From: Deltaproteobacteria bacterium | GTDB taxonomy: Bacteria; Desulfobacterota; Syntrophia; Syntrophales; JAFGIO01 | Direction: 5' to 3' | DNA: 39,856 bases | Assembly (NCBI GenBank): GCA_016929555.1 | Contig: JAFGIO010000065.1 | Location: 1-39,856, forward strand | Shown here: positions 9,197-15,317 of the stretch, in pieces | Layout: each line of letters opens with the position of its first letter | Numbering within the stretch: the stretch's first letter is position 1 | The notes under the pieces: generated by a model | Told to the model about the DNA's origin: nothing | Seen by the model: only the letters and a program-made list of their open reading frames with translations | Database searches by the model: none | Translations under genes and position numbers: made by a program

Positions 9197-9389
9197 GGAC
9201 CATCACAGTTGCGCTGATTCTGAATATCGTTTTCACGCACCAAAGAGCGAGAAGCGGTCGGCTATCGGACATGAGCCTGCCGCGTCCAAAGAGAGCAACG
9301 GGAGAATCAGCGCGAGTGGTACGAGTCATTTGGATCGGCTTGTTGGCCCCTCCCTTTTCTTCAAAACGTAGCCCTGGATCTTTCGGTGA

Positions 9390-9415
9390 AACTCTTAAAG
9401 ATCACTGAGTTTCTT
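9390..9415. terminator. Hairpin after the nucleotidyltransferase gene
   Basis: GAAACTC ... GAGTTTC forms a seven-base stem with an 11-12-base loop directly after the stop at 9423 (minus strand). No clear U-tract follows in the minus direction. It could be a weak terminator or remains of the distal cassette recombination site. Confidence 0.3.
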
Positions 9416-9422
9416 TAGAACC

Positions 9423-9884
9423 TTATCGATCTTCGTCATCTTCCAGTTTCTCTATATCTGCCTGATCCTGCTTGGAGTTCCTCATCCTCTTGAGCCATAT
9501 CAGATCTTTCTTGTTCGCAAGCATGACCCTTCCTTCTTCCGACTCCGCCTCCACAGCAGCTTTTACTATTTTTCTCGCCTCTTCGTCTTTCGCAACGAGG
9601 ATGTCGATCAACAGTTCATCCTCGGGTGCCTCTACCTTCAAAAAGGGGAGTAGTTCAATGCCCACGTTCTGGAACGTCCAAAACGATGCTGATTCAAAGT
9701 ATCCCTTGTTGCCAAGAATACCTTTCGCTGGATCGAAATCCTCGGAATCAACAAGAAGGTCAATATCGCGGGTAAAGCGCGGCTCCGTATAAAATGCCAT
9801 CGCCACCCCGCCCACAAGGGCATACTTCACCTTCAGCTTCTCAAACTGCGTTACCAGCCTTTTGAAATCCTCGAACACATTCAT
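9423..9884 (-). CDS. Orphan AbiEii-type nucleotidyltransferase-fold protein
   Basis: 153 residues. KYALVGGVAMAFYTEPRFTRDIDLLV contains the GG and DxD metal/nucleotide motifs of the polymerase-beta superfamily as used by AbiEii/MNT-type toxins and related proteins; a lysine-rich C-terminal part (LANKKDLIWLKRMR) is typical of this group. No AbiEi antitoxin or HEPN partner is next to it, so its role as a toxin is unproven. It is the most distal minus-strand gene of the integron array and is separated from the MazF cassette by the group II intron fragment. The ribosome site is weak. Confidence 0.75.
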   Translation of the reverse strand: MNVFEDFKRLVTQFEKLKVKYALVGGVAMAFYTEPRFTRDIDLLVDSEDFDPAKGILGNKGYFESASFWTFQNVGIELLPFLKVEAPEDELLIDILVAKDEEARKIVKAAVEAESEEGRVMLANKKDLIWLKRMRNSKQDQADIEKLEDDEDR

Positions 9885-9907
9885 GCCGTTTTCCGTAGGG
9901 CTATCGA

Positions 9908-9950
9908 AAAGCGCACCCGGAGCGGCCCAGCGGGCCGCGATCGGGTGGAG
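9908..9950. other. attC-like hairpin next to the group II intron fragment
   Basis: A compound inverted repeat: CACCCG (inner arm GCGGCCC, loop AGC, GGGCCGC) CGGGTG, with unpaired bases between inner and outer stems. This resembles the folded bottom strand of an attC site. The intron's 5' end follows a few bases later after ATTTT. No core box remains on the intron side, so an ordinary terminator hairpin is an alternative. Confidence 0.45.
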
Positions 9951-9957
9951 CGATTTT

Positions 9958-10545
9958 GTGTACGCCCGGCATGGGCGTGAACTTATAAGGTGAAAGTTCC
10001 CTGTATGTGAATCCTGTCGATGATTTAATCATTGACACAAGTACTAGCCGAAGGCAAGGGCGGAACCGTGAGGACCGTCCGAAGGAAGCCGGAGTGCAAA
10101 GCTGTGAGTGAAGCCTGTCCCGGACCTGATCCGGGAAACAGAAACAGCATACAAGGCTGAGTCTCCGGACAAGTCAGCACAACATGACAAAGCCCTGGAT
10201 TCGGGAGATACGGTAAATGCTGCGTTTGCATAGTCACAGTTCACGTTCTTATCCGGGGAGACCTGCCCGGTTGGCAACTCCGTAGAGAGTGGCACCCGTC
10301 ATGGCAACATGCCGTGGAACCGGACAGGAGTCAGCAGAGGCCATAGTAGGCGCAGGACGTTGCCAAAAGGCTGCATGGCAACTGGAAACGAGCCCGGGGA
10401 AGAGAAAGACCGGGAGGTCTCATCCCGCTGAAGGACCCAACCCAAAGTAGAGAATTCGCCCATATGTGCTCCGAAACGTGATGAACCCGAACGGGTGAGC
10501 GGAAAAGGTCGGGCGCGACGTAAGGGAAAACGCATGCTCAAGGAT
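9958..10545 (+). mobile_element. 5' fragment of a group II intron (no reverse transcriptase, no domain V)
   Basis: It begins GTGTACGCCCGGCATGGGCG, a 5' end close to the group II GUGYG start followed by the first domain I stem. Characteristic group II segments follow: AAGGTGAAAGTTCCC, CTAGCCGAAGGCAAGG, GGCAACTCCGTAGAGAGTGG and CCGTGGAACCGGACAGGAGT, the last usually near the start of the intron-encoded protein. No reverse transcriptase frame and no domain V/VI hairpin are found before the MazF gene at 10740, so it is a 3'-truncated remnant that cannot splice. It lies antisense to the cassette genes. The exact 3' limit is uncertain. Short open frames in this segment are intron RNA, not genes. 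Confidence 0.72.
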
Positions 10546-10659
10546 AAACTTGCAGTTGTCGCCTTCTTTTTAAAGAGCTATGAGTTATGCTGTATCCGGC
10601 TAAGGCTCGACATTCTTTGGGGACCGCCAGCTCGGCCGCAATCATGTTATCGATATCTA

Positions 10660-10745
10660 TTTTCATGAACGGTAATCAATGTTTGGATGCATACACTCGA
10701 ACTGTGCAGTGTATCTTTGGCATCCGCACCAGTGGGACGTTAACC
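10660..10745 (-). other. Degenerate attC-like site after the MazF gene
   Basis: On the minus strand GGTTAAC (10745-10739) overlaps the mazF stop codon TAA, as an attC R'' box would. A bulged hairpin follows: GGATGC, five unpaired bases, ATACACT, loop, AGTGTAT, GCATCC. The far core box is only GATTACC, so recombination competence is doubtful. Nothing else is recognised between 10546 and 10660. Confidence 0.4.
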
Positions 10746-11078
10746 GCCGATTATTTCATTTAGACCTTCAATAATTAAAGAAAGCTGGTCATCGGATGCA
10801 GTTGCTATTTTCTTCCCAATGCGTTTTATAGAAAGTGTGCGAATCTGGCTGATTTTAACCCAGGATTTCTTCGGTAGATTTTTTTCTGATAGCTCCAGGG
10901 TGAGAGGATAACCGGCTCGTTGAGGTTGGCTTGTCAGCGCAACAGCGATTACTGTCCCCGATCTTTCGTTGAAAACGTTGTGGCTCAAAATGAGAACAGG
11001 ACGCAACCCGCCCTGCTCACTTCCGATGACTGGATTTAAATCAGCCCAGTAGATGTTCCCCCTCAATATGCCGGCCAT
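10740..11078 (-). CDS. mazF: MazF/PemK-family endoribonuclease toxin
   Basis: 112 residues. [31 protein letters not shown] is the PemK/MazF beta-barrel core with the conserved RP motif, and [24 protein letters not shown] carries the catalytic-site threonine/serine strand. Members cleave mRNA at short sequences and are neutralised by the antitoxin encoded upstream. The start at 11078 overlaps the antitoxin stop by 16 bases, indicating translational coupling. The stop codon lies within a core-box-like GGTTAAC. Family assignment is firm; cleavage specificity is unknown. Confidence 0.92.
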
Positions 11079-11305
11079 TCTTCCAACTCCGATTTGAAAC
11101 CCTCTTCAGCGAAAAACTGTTCAAAATCGGGATCAAGTTTTGCGCACTCTTGAGCTAAACGGCTTTTTTGCATTCGAGTCAATTTCTCCATCACCGCCTC
11201 CTGAATCGCTTTACTTCGGTTAGGAAAAATATTGGATTTTACAAGCATATCAAGTTTTTTTACCATCTCATTATCTAATGTAATAGCTATTTTCGAAGCA
11301 CCCAT
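11063..11305 (-). CDS. Ribbon-helix-helix antitoxin paired with MazF
   Basis: 80 residues: [38 protein letters not shown] is a ribbon-helix-helix DNA-binding domain, followed by an acidic tail ending [20 protein letters not shown], which probably occupies the toxin site. An in-frame ATG at 11311 lies only two bases from the GGAGG, whereas ATG 11305 is eight bases from it; 11305 is chosen. A perfect inverted repeat at 11319-11339 lies immediately upstream and is the expected autoregulatory operator. Confidence 0.9.
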
Positions 11306-11318
11306 TTTCATTACCTCC

Positions 11319-11339
11319 GGTATGATAATAAATCATACC
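11319..11339. promoter_or_regulatory. Operator palindrome of the RHH/MazF module
   Basis: Arms GGTATGAT (11319-11326) and ATCATACC (11332-11339) with a five-base AT spacer. It overlaps the start of the ribosome site of the antitoxin gene, in keeping with autorepression by the ribbon-helix-helix protein. Confidence 0.65.
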
Positions 11340-11392
11340 AGCCTCTGTTTCAAGAAATATTTTATACATTGTTCACCCGGATATTCGGTCAT

Positions 11393-11572
11393 CTATTCTT
11401 CGTTGAGATTCTTGAGAATCTTTTTTGCCAATGGTTCTTTGATCTCGGGGTGCCTGGGGATAGCTTCCACCGTTCCATCTTTCGGATTCATCCAAAGCGA
11501 ATGGGAAACTTCTTCCCGCTTCAGATAGCAGCCAGCAATTCGCAGCCTTCGCTCCAACTTTCGTCGCTTCAT
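11393..11572 (-). CDS. hicA: HicA-like toxin without a HicB partner
   Basis: 59 residues. KLERRLRIAGCYLKREEVSHSLWMNPKDGTVEAIPRHPEIKEPLAKKILKNL matches the HicA double-stranded RNA-binding fold, including the SH that carries the catalytic histidine (usually GSHH) and the RHPEIKEPLAKKIL helix. The glycine before SH is replaced by valine. HicA proteins cleave mRNA and normally pair with HicB, but no HicB is visible on either side. ATG 11572 is chosen because it gives the standard HicA N-terminus; its ribosome site is poor. It overlaps, in another frame, the remnant at 11570-11666. It may be inactive or orphaned. Confidence 0.7.
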   Translation of the reverse strand: MKRRKLERRLRIAGCYLKREEVSHSLWMNPKDGTVEAIPRHPEIKEPLAKKILKNLNEE

Positions 11573-11666
11573 CCGACTTGAAGTCAAAAGTTTCATGAAG
11601 CACGCCAAAAAGATAGACGACACCAAGCTCATTGACCGGTGCGCATGAAAAAGACTTGAATGTTAT
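11570..11666 (-). pseudogene. N-terminal remnant of an unrelated protein
   Basis: Between a stop at 11669 and about 11570 the minus strand encodes APVNELGVVYLFGVLHETFDF, which resembles the conserved start of a widespread family (PxNExGVVxLFG). There is no start codon before it, and the frame then runs antiphase through hicA. It looks like a gene fragment left by rearrangement. The region 11667-11716 shows no gene. Confidence 0.35.
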
Positions 11667-11716
11667 TTATCTCCAAAGATGCGTTTTCGGTTTGCAGTGG
11701 TCCTTATTTCTTCTTA

Positions 11717-11777
11717 CCCCAATAAAAGCTCACCGAGGCGCGGTTTTTTGCGCATCCGGTGCAGCGACTCGTTACCC
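11717..11777 (-). other. attC site of the Phd/ParE cassette
   Basis: The R'' box GGGTAAC (11777-11771) contains the parE stop codon. The stem pairs GCT-g-CACCG with CGGTG-AGC, leaving one extrahelical G, and then GCGC with GCGC around an A-rich loop. The distal core is a poor ATTGGGG. R'' is the exact complement of the GTTACCC that begins this cassette at 12432-12426. Confidence 0.7.
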
Positions 11778-12071
11778 GCTGTCCTTTTCAGGTTCATCAG
11801 GTAGCTGGGCTCCATGCCATACAGCAACGATCCATACGGTCTTATCCTTGATTCTATAGAAAAAACGATAAGGCCTTACAATTACCTCGCGAAAAGGTAA
11901 GTCCGGGAACTCCGGTAGCAGTCTTCCCGACTCGGGAAACTCCCTAAGACGGGAAAGCGATTTCTCTGCCTTTTGGCGAAAGCTTACCGCCGCCGAGGGA
12001 TTGTCTTGGTGCATATAGGCAATAGCTTCAATAAACTGGCGGCGAGCTGTGGGGGTAAACAGGATTTTCAA
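11772..12071 (-). CDS. RelE/ParE-family toxin
   Basis: 99 residues. ILFTPTARRQFIEAIAYMHQDNPSAAVSFRQKAEKSLSRLREFPESGRLLPEF is the two-helix start of ParE/RelE toxins, and REVIVRPYRFFYRIKDKTVWIVAVWHGAQ is the sheet with conserved arginine and tyrosine. ParE members poison gyrase and RelE members cleave ribosome-bound mRNA; the sequence is more ParE-like but this is not decisive. It overlaps the antitoxin stop by four bases (ATGA). The stop codon is embedded in the attC R'' box, so gene and recombination site are packed together. Confidence 0.9.
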   Translation of the reverse strand: MKILFTPTARRQFIEAIAYMHQDNPSAAVSFRQKAEKSLSRLREFPESGRLLPEFPDLPFREVIVRPYRFFYRIKDKTVWIVAVWHGAQLPDEPEKDSG

Positions 12072-12349
12072 GGTTTTGCCGCCTCGAGAAAACGGTCAGC
12101 CTCTTTCAGCACATCGTCAAGCTTATGGCCAATACCTGCCTCTATTTCTTTCTCCCCTCTGGCCAACAAGTGCAAAACATCCATTTCGTGCTGTGCGTTC
12201 TGATAGACTTCCATGCTGACCATGACTGCTGTTGCTCTTCCTCGTTGGGTAATGAAAACAGGTTCTCTCGAAGATGACACACTCTTGACCACATCGCTGG
12301 CGTTTTGTCTAAGATCGGAAATTGGTATAATTTTGGGAACGGTTGGCAT
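12068..12349 (-). CDS. Phd/YefM-family antitoxin
   Basis: 93 residues. IIPISDLRQNASDVVKSVSSSREPVFITQRGRATAVMVSMEVYQ is the complete Phd/YefM DNA-binding domain; the helical C-terminus (EIEAGIGHKLDDVLKEADRFLEAAK) would bind the ParE toxin. AGGAGGT lies eight bases before the start. Direct repeats upstream (12371-12391) are a candidate operator. Translationally coupled to parE. Confidence 0.92.
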   Translation of the reverse strand: MPTVPKIIPISDLRQNASDVVKSVSSSREPVFITQRGRATAVMVSMEVYQNAQHEMDVLHLLARGEKEIEAGIGHKLDDVLKEADRFLEAAKP

Positions 12350-12370
12350 TGGTTGTACCTCCTATAATGT

Positions 12371-12391
12371 TACCAAAGGTACTACCAAAGG
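12371..12391. promoter_or_regulatory. Direct repeats upstream of the Phd antitoxin
   Basis: Two copies of TACCAAAGG (12371-12379 and 12383-12391), 12 bases apart, just upstream of the antitoxin ribosome site. They form GGTA-g-TACC symmetry at the junction, as expected for a Phd/YefM operator next to the cassette's own promoter. Confidence 0.45.
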
Positions 12392-12425
12392 ATAATTTTG
12401 TCAAGAATCTGTTTCGTCTATTTAC

Positions 12426-12492
12426 GGGTAACGGCGAGTTGAGCGGTTTGATGGCAGGCTGCCGGCGAATGCGCTCGAACGATATGTTCGGC
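12426..12492 (-). other. attC site of a gene-less cassette
   Basis: 67 bases from R'' GCCGAAC (12492-12486) to R' GTTACCC (12432-12426). The stem pairs GTT-c-GAGCG with CGCTC-AAC, leaving a single extrahelical C, the hallmark of attC strand choice. The final TTACCC belongs to the following Phd/ParE cassette. Confidence 0.78.
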
Positions 12493-12573
12493 GGTGCGAG
12501 TCAGCACGCGGTCGGACTATCGGGCGAGTGCGAAAGCGCAACTCGCCGCACGGTCGCGCATTGTGCGACCGTA
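12432..12573 (-). other. Gene-less integron cassette
   Basis: About 142 bases between two attC sites with no open frame of note. It contains a strong hairpin, with arms CCGTACGGTCGC and GCGACCGTGCGG around 12550-12580, and a smaller one (GAGT-GCG/CGC-ACTC). It is bounded by a degenerate GTACGGT on one side and GCCGAAC on the other. It could be a remnant cassette or one carrying only a structural RNA or promoter. Confidence 0.5.
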
Positions 12574-12629
12574 CGGCAGGCATGAGGGGCGCGAGTTTAC
12601 GAGCGTCCCTCTCCATGCCCTTGTTCGGC
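12568..12629 (-). other. attC site of the BrnT cassette
   Basis: 62 bases starting with R'' GCCGAAC (12629-12623), the exact complement of the GTTCGGC that begins this cassette at 13129-13123. The stem pairs GGCATG-g-AGaGGG with CCCCTCATGCC around a central GCG/CGC. The antitoxin's stop codon (12597-12599) lies inside the site. The far box is a degenerate GTACGGT. Confidence 0.72.
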
Positions 12630-12830
12630 CCTCTTCTGTCTCTTGATAATTGCGGTCAGACCCCGGAGAGCCTCGTTGACCGATTCGTGGTCAGGAAAAT
12701 ACTCAGCCACATCAGGATCAATAACTACAACGTTGTTTCCTTCCGCATATCGCTTTGCATATTTTCCCCTGACTCCGCCGGTAAAATTGTATTCCTCCAG
12801 CATATCTGGATCATTCTTCATTCTCTTCAT
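12597..12830 (-). CDS. Antitoxin partner of BrnT
   Basis: 77 residues: EEYNFTGGVRGKYAKRYAEGNNVVVIDPDVAEYFPDHESVNEALRGLTAIIKRQ. This is the small antitoxin type often encoded after BrnT-like toxins, with a conserved GGVRGKY and FPDxxSVNEALR ending in a basic helix. It is not classical BrnA. It overlaps the toxin stop by 20 bases. The last codons run through the attC R'' and stem, so the C-terminus (AEQGHGEGRS) is dictated by the recombination site. Confidence 0.78.
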   Translation of the reverse strand: MKRMKNDPDMLEEYNFTGGVRGKYAKRYAEGNNVVVIDPDVAEYFPDHESVNEALRGLTAIIKRQKRAEQGHGEGRS

Positions 12831-13095
12831 ATCTTAACCTCTCTTTTTTGGTCGCCACCCTGGTACTGATAATGCGTATTCGCTCACCTCTGTCGGTATG
12901 GACGATAACCAGAAGTCGCCCTTGAATGGATCGTCCAATAAGGACAAAGCGGTCCTCATCCTCGGAATGCAAGGGATCGTCAATCGTCTGTGACACCGGG
13001 TCACGAAACGCCGTGCTCGCCTCGTTGAAAGAGACACCCTGTGTTTTGATGTTCAGCCTTGCCTTTTTTCGATCCCATTCAAACAGTAACCCCAT
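12811..13095 (-). CDS. brnT: BrnT-family toxin
   Basis: 94 residues: LLFEWDRKKARLNIKTQGVSFNEASTAFRDP, then RFVLIGRSIQGRLLVIVHTDRGERIRIISTRVATKKERLRYE. These are the BrnT signatures (FEWDxxKxxxNxxxHGVSF and RxISARxAxxxERxxYE), with histidine replaced by glutamine in the first motif. BrnT is a RelE-fold ribonuclease. ATG 13095 is chosen over the upstream open frame because AAGGAA lies nine bases before it and the conserved sequence starts there; the longer frame would run into attC. First gene of cassette 2. Confidence 0.88.
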   Translation of the reverse strand: MGLLFEWDRKKARLNIKTQGVSFNEASTAFRDPVSQTIDDPLHSEDEDRFVLIGRSIQGRLLVIVHTDRGERIRIISTRVATKKERLRYEENEE

Positions 13096-13122
13096 AATAC
13101 GTCGAATTCCTTCTTTGCTAGT

Positions 13123-13178
13123 GCCGAACGCCAAGTTCACCGGGAGTGCAAGCGATACGGTGGAACGCCGGGTTATCC
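13123..13178 (-). other. attC site of the HigBA-like cassette
   Basis: 56 bases from R'' GGATAAC (13178-13172) to R' GTTCGGC (13129-13123). The stem pairs GTTC-c-ACCG with CGGT-GAAC, with one extrahelical C. R'' is the exact complement of GTTATCC at the attI junction (13862-13856), where this cassette starts. Textbook attC organisation. Confidence 0.85.
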
Positions 13179-13187
13179 GCCCTTTTT

Positions 13188-13472
13188 CTATGCTGCTGTC
13201 TTCAGAGTCACGTGCATTCCAGCTTTGGTAGCAAGAATGATTAGCCTTTCAAGGCTAAACTTCTCCCACTTGCCGGTCGTAAGGTCGGAGACCCTTGACT
13301 GAGTGATGCCCAGGATCGCCGCGGCTTTGGTCTGTGTGAGTTTCTTGGCTTTGATGAACCTGCGGAGATCAGCCATGAGATCAGCTCGCATTTGAAGAAT
13401 AGCAGCTTCGTCAGGTGAATAGCCTAGATCAACAAACACGTTCCCGGACGAATTGATGATAGCTTCATTCAT
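13188..13472 (-). CDS. HigA-like XRE-family antitoxin
   Basis: 94 residues. LMADLRRFIKAKKLTQTKAAAILGITQSRVSDLTTGKWEKFSLERLIILATKAGMHVTL is the XRE helix-turn-helix of HigA2-type antitoxins that follow Gp49-type toxins. It overlaps the toxin stop by four bases (ATGA) and ends ten bases before the attC site. It probably represses the module's promoter. Confidence 0.9.
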   Translation of the reverse strand: MNEAIINSSGNVFVDLGYSPDEAAILQMRADLMADLRRFIKAKKLTQTKAAAILGITQSRVSDLTTGKWEKFSLERLIILATKAGMHVTLKTAA

Positions 13473-13795
13473 AGATTGCCTCCAATCTTCTTGAATCTTC
13501 TATGGGCCAACTCGATATCATTCTTGTTCGTCTTTTGGCTCTTCTTCTGAAAGGCATGGAGCACATAGACAGCATCAGATAGCTTTGCCATATAGATGAC
13601 TCGCCACTCTCCCAACACACGAATACGGATTTCTCGCACGCCAGAGCCTATGGACGACATGGCCTTCCAATCTCGTGGATCAAAGCCGTTCTGAACCGCC
13701 CGAAGCTCAAAACCTGCAGCACGCCGGGCTTCCTCTGGGAAATTACAGAGGTCATCGAGACTTGACCCAACGAATATCAGTGGCTTGGTATCCAT
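13469..13795 (-). CDS. HigB/Gp49-like toxin of RelE superfamily
   Basis: 108 residues. FVGSSLDDLCNFPEEARRAAGFELRAVQNGFDPRDWKAMSSIGSGVREIRIR then WRVIYMAKLSDAVYVLHAFQKKSQKTNKNDIELAHRRFKKI is the phage-derived Gp49/HigB family; the AFQKKSxKTxxxDIELAxxR end is diagnostic. These are ribosome-dependent mRNA endonucleases. It is the first cassette gene after attI. There is no ribosome site before the ATG; a promoter at 13802-13829 would place the transcript start on the ATG itself. Confidence 0.9.
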   Translation of the reverse strand: MDTKPLIFVGSSLDDLCNFPEEARRAAGFELRAVQNGFDPRDWKAMSSIGSGVREIRIRVLGEWRVIYMAKLSDAVYVLHAFQKKSQKTNKNDIELAHRRFKKIGGNL

Positions 13796-13801
13796 TTAAG
13801 C

Positions 13802-13829
13802 ATTATATAAGTTGTGATATATTTCGCAA
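13802..13829 (-). promoter_or_regulatory. Cassette-borne promoter of the HigBA-like module
   Basis: On the minus strand TTGCGA (13829-13824), a 16-base spacer, TATAAT (13807-13802). Seven bases after the -10 box is the A of the toxin ATG (13795), predicting a leaderless transcript. It lies inside cassette 1, so it travels with the cassette. Confidence 0.6.
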
Positions 13830-13855
13830 GTCTATCCGGTTTTCAGGTTTCTTAA

Positions 13856-13925
13856 GGATAACGATTAATGTCTTAGATTGGTATTTGCCGAATTTCTGTG
13901 ACAGCCTAAATTACTTTTAGAAAAA
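13856..13925 (-). other. attI-type integration site
   Basis: The minus strand has core GTTATCC (13862-13856), the box at which cassette 1 begins; the attI proper is the stretch toward intI. It lies about 175 bases from the integrase start, as in other integrons. Its extent is approximate. Between here and 14036 the sequence is AT-rich, with an AAACCC ... GGGTTT inverted repeat near 13950-13985. I cannot place the Pc promoter confidently. Confidence 0.6.
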
Positions 13926-14036
13926 TGGAAAGTAAAATATAAACCCGAAATCAGGCATGATTTAGCTTCCATCATTGGGTTTTTTGTTAATAAAGGCTAA
14001 AAATCAAGCTGGTAAAATACGGAAAAAAATCCTTTG

Positions 14037-15317
14037 ATGCTCGATGACAAGCTGCCGGAGTTCCAAAAGCACCTTCTGGAAAAGAATCTGGTCCCGGCTA
14101 AGAACGTGCCGTTCTATGCCAATTGGGTAAGCCGGTTTCTCGATTATGCAAGACGCAATGAATTGTCCGCCTTGGAATATCGGGAATCTACGGTTTTGGG
14201 TTTTTTGGATTTACTGAAAAAAGACAAGCATGTTCTGGATTGGCAGCACCGTCAGGCAAATGATTCTATCATGCTTTATTATTTTAACTATCTTAACGAG
14301 ACAGATGCCCGATCGGTAAAAGCTTTATCATCTGGTAGCGTGCAGGAAACCATTCAAGAAACGAGACGCCTGATTCGCCTGAAACATTATTCATACAGCA
14401 CGGAAAGAACCTATCTCCATTGGATCGAACGGTTTCTCGAATATGCCAGGCAAACGGGGGGAAAAACAATTTCCGAGACCGGCGAATCCGATTTCAAGAA
14501 TTTCCTCAGCCATCTTGCCCTTAAACAGCGGGTTTCCGCTTCCACGCAGAACCAGGCCTTTAACGCGGTTTTATTTTTCTTCCGACATATCCTGGGAAAA
14601 GAAGCGGGAAATCTTGCCCATACCGTCCGCGCAAAGCGAGGGAAGAAACTGCCCGTGGTCTTTTCTGTAGAAGAGGTTAGACGATTATGGGCCTGTATGA
14701 CGGGCAGGGATTTGCTCATCGCCGGGCTGATCTACGGTGCGGGGTTGAGGCTGATGGAACTCGCCCGTCTGAGAGTCAAGGACATAGATTTTGATTTGAA
14801 TACGGTAACCGTCCGAAGCGGCAAAGGTGATAAGGACAGGACGACAATCCTGCCGGCAAAGGTTAAAGATCTCCTTAGGAAACACTTGGTCGAAGTCAAA
14901 AGCCTGCATGAGCGGGATCTTTCCCGAGGATACGGCGAAGTCCATCTTCCCGATGCGTTGAGCAGAAAATACCCCAACGCGGGCAAAGAATGGGCCTGGC
15001 AATACGTTTTTCCTGCCAGCAATCTTTCTGTCGACCCGCATGGCGGCAGGGTGGCCCGCCATCATATCAGCGACTCCGCCATCCAGGAGATCATAAAAAA
15101 GGCCGTCAGGAAGGCCGGCATTCCCAAACACGGCTCGGTGCATACGCTGCGCCACAGCTTCGCGACCCATTTGCTGATGAACGGCGTCAACATCCGGGAG
15201 GTGCAGGAGTTGCTCGGCCATAAAAACGTGGAAACGACGATGATCTACACGCATGTGCTGCGGGATATGTCCAAAGCCCCGAAGAGCCCGCTGGATCTCC
15301 TTCTGGAAGGATCGTAA
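14037..15317 (+). CDS. intI: Integron integrase with duplicated N-terminal core-binding domain
   Basis: 426 residues (427 if TTG 14034 is used). Numbering from the TTG, the tyrosine recombinase residues are R239 (GAGLRLMEL), K264, H370 and R373 (HTLRHSFATHLL), H396 (LLGHKNVETT) and Y405 (MIYTHV). Between the arginine and HxxR lies the IntI-specific insertion: LPDALSRKYPNAGKEW, WQYVFPAS, then DPHGG and RHHISDSAIQ. XerC/D lack it. IntI1 has 337 residues; the extra 90 are a second SAM-like domain. Residues about 1-90 repeat the pattern of 105-190 (YANWVSRFLDYAR versus YLHWIERFLEYAR). It recombines attI and attC sites. The ribosome site is weak. Confidence 0.93.
   Translation: MLDDKLPEFQKHLLEKNLVPAKNVPFYANWVSRFLDYARRNELSALEYRESTVLGFLDLLKKDKHVLDWQHRQANDSIMLYYFNYLNETDARSVKALSSGSVQETIQETRRLIRLKHYSYSTERTYLHWIERFLEYARQTGGKTISETGESDFKNFLSHLALKQRVSASTQNQAFNAVLFFFRHILGKEAGNLAHTVRAKRGKKLPVVFSVEEVRRLWACMTGRDLLIAGLIYGAGLRLMELARLRVKDIDFDLNTVTVRSGKGDKDRTTILPAKVKDLLRKHLVEVKSLHERDLSRGYGEVHLPDALSRKYPNAGKEWAWQYVFPASNLSVDPHGGRVARHHISDSAIQEIIKKAVRKAGIPKHGSVHTLRHSFATHLLMNGVNIREVQELLGHKNVETTMIYTHVLRDMSKAPKSPLDLLLEGS

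Follow-up and report, generated by a model that had tools for sequence, protein, structure and literature searches.

The superintegron of Vibrio cholerae carries 179 cassettes, 19 of which (about a tenth) are toxin–antitoxin (TA) cassettes (PMC11551772), and in this species excision of TA cassettes brings about toxicity, and their presence stabilises the array (PMC11023631, PMC11551772). Here we describe an integron in a 39,856-nucleotide stretch of DNA from a Deltaproteobacteria bacterium of the order Syntrophales (GenBank assembly GCA_016929555.1, contig JAFGIO010000065.1). This stretch, hereafter the window, is contig C42 of an assembly that resembles a metagenome-assembled genome (MAG; 3.07 Mb, 285 contigs, 88% complete). 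Our analysis indicated that the locus is a genuine short sedentary chromosomal integron dominated by TA cassettes, with an array of ~4–4.5 kb that is complete between ade and metG on a single contig. As in the V. cholerae superintegron, the integrase is divergent from the array, the cassettes are bounded by attC sites, and TA cassettes are present. It differs in that all of its ordinary proximal cassettes (3/3) are TA cassettes, the array is far shorter, and the integrase has an extra N-terminal domain. The short, TA-dominated array had already been proposed when the window was read from its letters alone (hereafter the sequence-only reading), and this proposal stands.

The integrase gene (14037–15317, plus strand; 426 aa) matched TIGR02249 at 411 bits (cut-off 265), and no second integrase above this cut-off was detected in the same genome. 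The catalytic residues R238, H369, R372, H395, and Y404 were invariant among 24 aligned sequences, and the nearest solved structure, 2A3V, is likewise an integron integrase. For the attC sites we used two covariance models, built from 23 and 70 attC sites of relatives, respectively, and neither included any sequence from the window. The stems of the 23 sites covary strongly, with 57 cells changed on both sides vs. 20 in shuffles. With filters off, the first model located sites at 13123–13178 (32.2 bits, E=2.6e-6) and 12427–12492 (27.7 bits, E=4e-5), and its six top matches in the 40 kb all fell within 9293–13178 on the minus strand. With the second model, five sites were significant; all of them lie next to the integrase on the minus strand and score from 18.9 to 44.8 bits, while no other site in the 40 kb exceeded 12.5 bits. 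Four of these belong to cassettes 1 (13123–13178; 44.8 bits), 2 (12568–12629; 29.5 bits), 3 (12426–12492; 34.1 bits), and 4 (about 11722–11777, with the match at 11722–11769; 18.9 bits). The fifth (9899–9961; 27.5 bits, E=4.6e-5) has its R'' box replaced by an intron, and a possible degenerate terminal attC lies at 9293–9348 (12.5 bits, E=0.49). The sites face away from the integrase and sit at the 3' ends of the cassettes, as expected of an integron, and when applied to relatives both models also marked their arrays, which with few exceptions lie upstream of the integrase on the minus strand. The IntI-type recombinase facing away from minus-strand cassettes, as described in the sequence-only reading, was thus recovered, and the proposed check by covariance model gave sites well above background.

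Cassette boundaries were set by a rule for integrated arrays: the final six bases of each R' box are already part of the cassette that follows and have to match the R'' box of that cassette. Three TA cassettes followed this rule at 7/7 positions: HigBA (5' end TTATCC, own R'' GGATAAC), BrnTA (TTCGGC, GCCGAAC), and Phd-ParE (TTACCC, GGGTAAC). The 5' end of a fourth cassette, which has no gene, matched its own R'' box at 5/7 positions. Because the 5' ends match their own R'' boxes, the boundaries of these four cassettes are exact, and the complementarity in the three TA cassettes is a signature of real cassettes. Of the five or six small cassettes counted previously, then, four are well bounded, although one of these holds no gene and the distal half of the array is without recognisable attC sites. 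A strict R''/R' motif scan that demanded pairing returned zero minus-strand attC sites and was dropped; it fails because the integrated R' box mostly belongs to the next cassette, so that the two boxes need not pair. The idea that most R' boxes had decayed was likewise dropped, given that GTTACCC and GTTCGGC agree with the R'' boxes of the next cassettes. As seen at attI in locus L027, the gene-less cassette normally starts with GTACGGT at its 5' end. The boxes that do look damaged are ATTGGGG (attC of Phd-ParE) and GATAGCC (the attC before the nucleotidyltransferase gene described below).

In L026, L027, L028, L029, L030, L097, and other loci, the attI region (13862–14030) is conserved as far as the crossover. 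The crossover falls between 13862 (G) and 13861 (T), in the motif ACATTAATCG^TTATCC, and the core of the window's attI has drifted from the consensus of its relatives. In these relatives, conservation ends at TATTAATTG^TT, and the sequence beyond it was different in each relative examined, with the exception that the family of the gene-less cassette recurs beside attI. The attI-proximal cassette therefore varies as the sequence-only reading anticipated for an integron. With regard to the chromosomal setting, the order metG-yaaT-holB is kept in most relatives read, and none of the 29 relatives with the metG locus read had an integrase within 1.5 kb of metG. Neither of the two conditions that the sequence-only reading set for refutation was thus borne out. 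We did not find ade beside metG-yaaT-holB in the relatives read. In one distant relative (L091, 809–4933), tatD and metG are neighbours of an integron integrase, and the relative orientation matches that in the window.

The TA families were called by Pfam, with each match covering nearly the whole model, and the families named in the sequence-only reading (HigBA-like, BrnT, Phd/ParE, and RHH/MazF) were all recovered, as was an orphan HicA. All of these genes are on the minus strand. Cassette 1 (13129–13861) encodes a HigB-like toxin (13469–13795; Gp49, 83.6 bits) and a HigA-like antitoxin (13188–13472; HTH_37, 70.4 bits). Cassette 2 (12574–13128) encodes a BrnT toxin (12811 to ~13116; 92.3 bits) and a small partner (12597–12830) that matched no Pfam family; in L039, a Nitrospirota array, homologues of both genes (68% and 74% identical) are found as a pair and are followed immediately by an attC. 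Cassette 4 (11723–12431) carries a Phd antitoxin (12068–12349; PhdYefM, 62.9 bits) and a ParE toxin (11772–12071; 69.9 bits). Further from the integrase are the HicA toxin (11393–11632; HicA_toxin, 32.4 bits, cut-off 27), for which no HicB partner was found, and an RHH antitoxin (11063–11311; RHH_1, 25.5 bits) with a MazF/PemK toxin (10740–11078; PemK, 105.9 bits). Judged from sequence, HigBA, Phd-ParE, and RHH-MazF are predicted type II systems, each consisting of toxin and antitoxin genes of known families that overlap or are adjacent. PADLOC gave marginal matches only.

We compared this content with 31 arrays (30 from relatives and one attC cluster from the same genome) and scanned the open reading frames (ORFs) of 80 cassettes. 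Methyltransferases, HNH nucleases, and restriction enzymes were the most frequent, and TA families were limited to three PIN, two VapB, and one HicA, along with one BrnT detected by tblastn in L047, or at most 7/80 cassettes. In the window, TA genes are present in 3/3 well-bounded gene cassettes and in 5/6 gene units when the distal genes are included (Fisher's test against the relatives, 0.0013 and 0.00013, respectively). Testing the TA share against V. cholerae (~19/180; PMC11023631, PMC11551772) led to a similar outcome. Furthermore, nine toxins of the ParE, BrnT, PemK, and Gp49 families were detected in the genome, and four of them map to the array (binomial, about 6e-10). The paralogues of the array's toxins outside it are only 30–44% identical, in a search that covered the toxins other than HicA in an 88% complete genome, and no second ParE was found in that same 88%. 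The attC cluster of the same genome (L140, contig C41, 904–2061) lies at a contig end and comprises one strong and two weak sites. It adjoins HNH and DUF3800 genes, and we saw no integrase next to it.

How such an array came about can be explained by retention. The integrase would have captured TA cassettes at attI through attI × attC recombination; each of these would have its own promoter for transcription and no close duplicate in the genome. Loss of such a cassette by excision or deletion would then leave a toxin unneutralised and be selected against; since self-transcription and the lack of a duplicate make excision costly, TA cassettes would outlast the others. They would persist while ordinary cassettes were lost and distal attC sites decayed, the array would become mostly TA, and the distal HicA and RHH-MazF would end as fixed chromosomal genes. 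Taken as a whole, we give this explanation about an even chance of being correct. The sequence-only reading had gone further in suggesting that the array was reduced to an "addictive core". Its premise of a short, TA-dominated array holds, but reduction from a larger array is plausible and unproven, and biased capture fits too.

Several points weigh against retention and call for caution. The loss of other cassettes is presumed, and the toxicity and antitoxin action of the modules are predictions. Promoter-like sites precede HigBA (13829–13802, 10/12) and RHH-MazF (11353–11325, 10/12), but the six found in the region are near chance (4.4 expected). The enrichment figures are post hoc, because the window was picked for looking TA-rich. 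Lastly, a bias towards capturing TA cassettes could produce this pattern as well, considering that TA systems are abundant in environmental integrons (PMC7370490). The decay of distal attC sites beside intact TA ORFs, together with the absence of close toxin copies, fits retention and biased capture alike.

The abundance of TA systems in environmental integrons generally is what makes biased capture a serious rival. According to this alternative, the environmental pool of cassettes is rich in TA, the array is a small sample of it, and TA cassettes have no special role in retention. In metagenomes, few integron functions are more abundant than TA systems (PMC7370490), many have also been reported in halophile integrons with group II introns (PMC7923331), and the BrnTA cassette has its close relative in the Nitrospirota array. 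On the other hand, the relatives with the same integrase type carry TA in few of their cassettes, and the distal TA ORFs are intact despite their vanished attC sites. Weighing both sides, we regard a sampling origin as quite possible, if somewhat improbable.

The distal half of the array bears on a second alternative, in which the integron is decaying, the array is immobile, and its TA genes are leftover chromosomal loci, with HicA and MazF having perhaps arrived by another route. No attC was detected from that of Phd-ParE to position 9961, even with filters off; HicA and RHH-MazF lie in this 1.75-kb stretch with no attC between them. In addition, the R' box of the cassette 4 attC is damaged, the core of attI has diverged from the consensus of relatives, and a group II intron (about 9960–10540, plus strand; Rfam RF02001, 80 bits; RF01998, 50.1 bits) interrupts the last attC. 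On the bottom strand of the attC the insertion point reads ..GATTTTGT|GTACGCC.., where the bases before the intron are those of an attC hairpin with TTTTGT at its end. According to a published description, group IIC-attC introns insert in the R'' box on the bottom strand of attC, at TTGT/T and opposite to the cassettes (PMC7923331). The orientation of the window intron and its ..TTTTGT| target fit this pattern, but the copy, a candidate at most for this class, is a truncated 5' fragment without domain V or a reverse transcriptase. A copy 88% identical over 407 bp lies beside an attC-like hairpin in L158/L195. The intron within attC and the gene-less cassette were both overlooked in the sequence-only reading. 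The last ORF (9423–9884, minus strand), which we consider the probable last cassette, encodes a nucleotidyltransferase (NTP_transf_5, DUF6036 or AbiEii-like; marginal Pfam matches at 23.8–27.5 bits) and is not a clear TA gene. Decay of the whole integron is nonetheless unlikely in our view, as the integrase is intact and conserved, and the three proximal TA cassettes keep a perfect agreement between R'' box and 5' end that decay would erode. As for a generic tyrosine recombinase beside a chance cluster of TA genes, small TA genes do cluster in many genomic islands, but the TIGR02249 match above cut-off, attC matches far above background on the expected strand, and a conserved attI with variable neighbours already refute this idea, to which we assign a negligible probability.

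The most unusual part of the array is cassette 3 (12432–12573, minus strand; 142 bp), which has an attC and a covarying hairpin but no gene, and which belongs to a multi-copy family. Members of this family were detected in 27/155 genomes of the order, often as several copies per genome, and copies are present in L027, L030, L040, L041, L097, L166, L169, and other loci. It also extends to a small number of other taxonomic families within the phylum: a strict pattern matched 8/395 genomes, three of the eight being in the same order, and one genome outside the order held ten such matches. Almost half of the distinct copies (14/32) directly follow an attI-like sequence. In the 5' hairpin, the constant core CGCGCTGCGCGCG lies between the R' box and a mirror copy of R''. 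Pairing holds in 99% of cells over the 11 variants compared, and 6/10 pairs change on both sides. The box occurs in seven sequence forms, each matched by its mirror copy (one via a G-T pair), and in full-length copies 11–13 positions of a 13-nt arm that follows the hairpin agree with the L' arm at the opposite end of the cassette. Because the constant core served in part to collect the variants, its conservation is biased; the covarying box was not used for this. Rfam gave no convincing match to the cassette.

When the bottom strand was folded as DNA, the R' box fell within the local hairpin at mean probabilities of 0.51–1.00 across the family (0.79 for the window copy), vs. 0–0.49 at 15 ordinary cassette boundaries. 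Based on these folding models, we tentatively suggest that the family could represent structured locks or insulators in integron arrays, a role we consider doubtful at present. As a lock, the bottom-strand hairpin would take the R' box away from the upstream attC and so block excision of the preceding cassette, and a gene-less cassette placed first at attI could fix the array. Alternatively, the cassette may have a promoter or RNA role.

The integrase itself has ~100 additional N-terminal residues when compared with 2A3V. Residues 1 to ~95 (14037–14330) form an extra SAM-like domain, and this domain is duplicated within the protein (BLASTP of half vs. half, E=4e-7), with a repeat of 39 nt at 74% identity in the gene. 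An AlphaFold model comprises two four-helix bundles (mean predicted local distance difference test score, 77). The extension is common among relatives (63/80 loci align from residue 9 or earlier), and the loci with it span Desulfobacterota, Nitrospirota, Omnitrophota, Elusimicrobia, Verrucomicrobia, and Kiritimatiellales, the integrons of L026–L105 included. Our literature search found no published description of an extra N-terminal domain in integron integrases. We note that, by eye, ACCAACTTGG-like motifs seem to repeat in 13863–14036 and in the same region of L026–L043, including one close to the start codon of the integrase gene and another at the crossover. These are possible arm-type binding sites for the extra domain.

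The novelty of the locus is modest because integrons with TA cassettes are already known. What raises its interest is how strongly TA genes dominate, that the array is both short and complete, and the structured gene-less cassette, which suggests that integrons may carry parts controlling recombination itself. Short arrays that are rich in TA systems and have a group II intron in attC are also known from halophiles (PMC7923331), but these integrons belong to another host group, and the window intron is a fragment. Gene-less cassettes with an attC and no ORF are likewise found in Vibrionaceae superintegrons, where they are mostly promoters (PMC11014356), whereas the family in the window is GC-rich, multi-copy, often located at attI, and has covarying hairpins. 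The closest integrons are those of Smithella, Syntrophaceae, and Nitrospirota MAGs (L026–L105), whose integrases are up to 85% identical, N-terminal domain included, and which share the same attI and attC style; no account of arrays from Smithella/Syntrophaceae-related hosts turned up in our literature search. In contrast to the window, their cassettes mostly encode methyltransferases, HNH nucleases, restriction enzymes, and unknown proteins, and rarely TA systems. The short TA-dominated array shows what may remain once other cassettes are lost. While the idea of stabilisation by TA cassettes stems from very large arrays, an array of this size and content would allow the idea to be tested with few cassettes.

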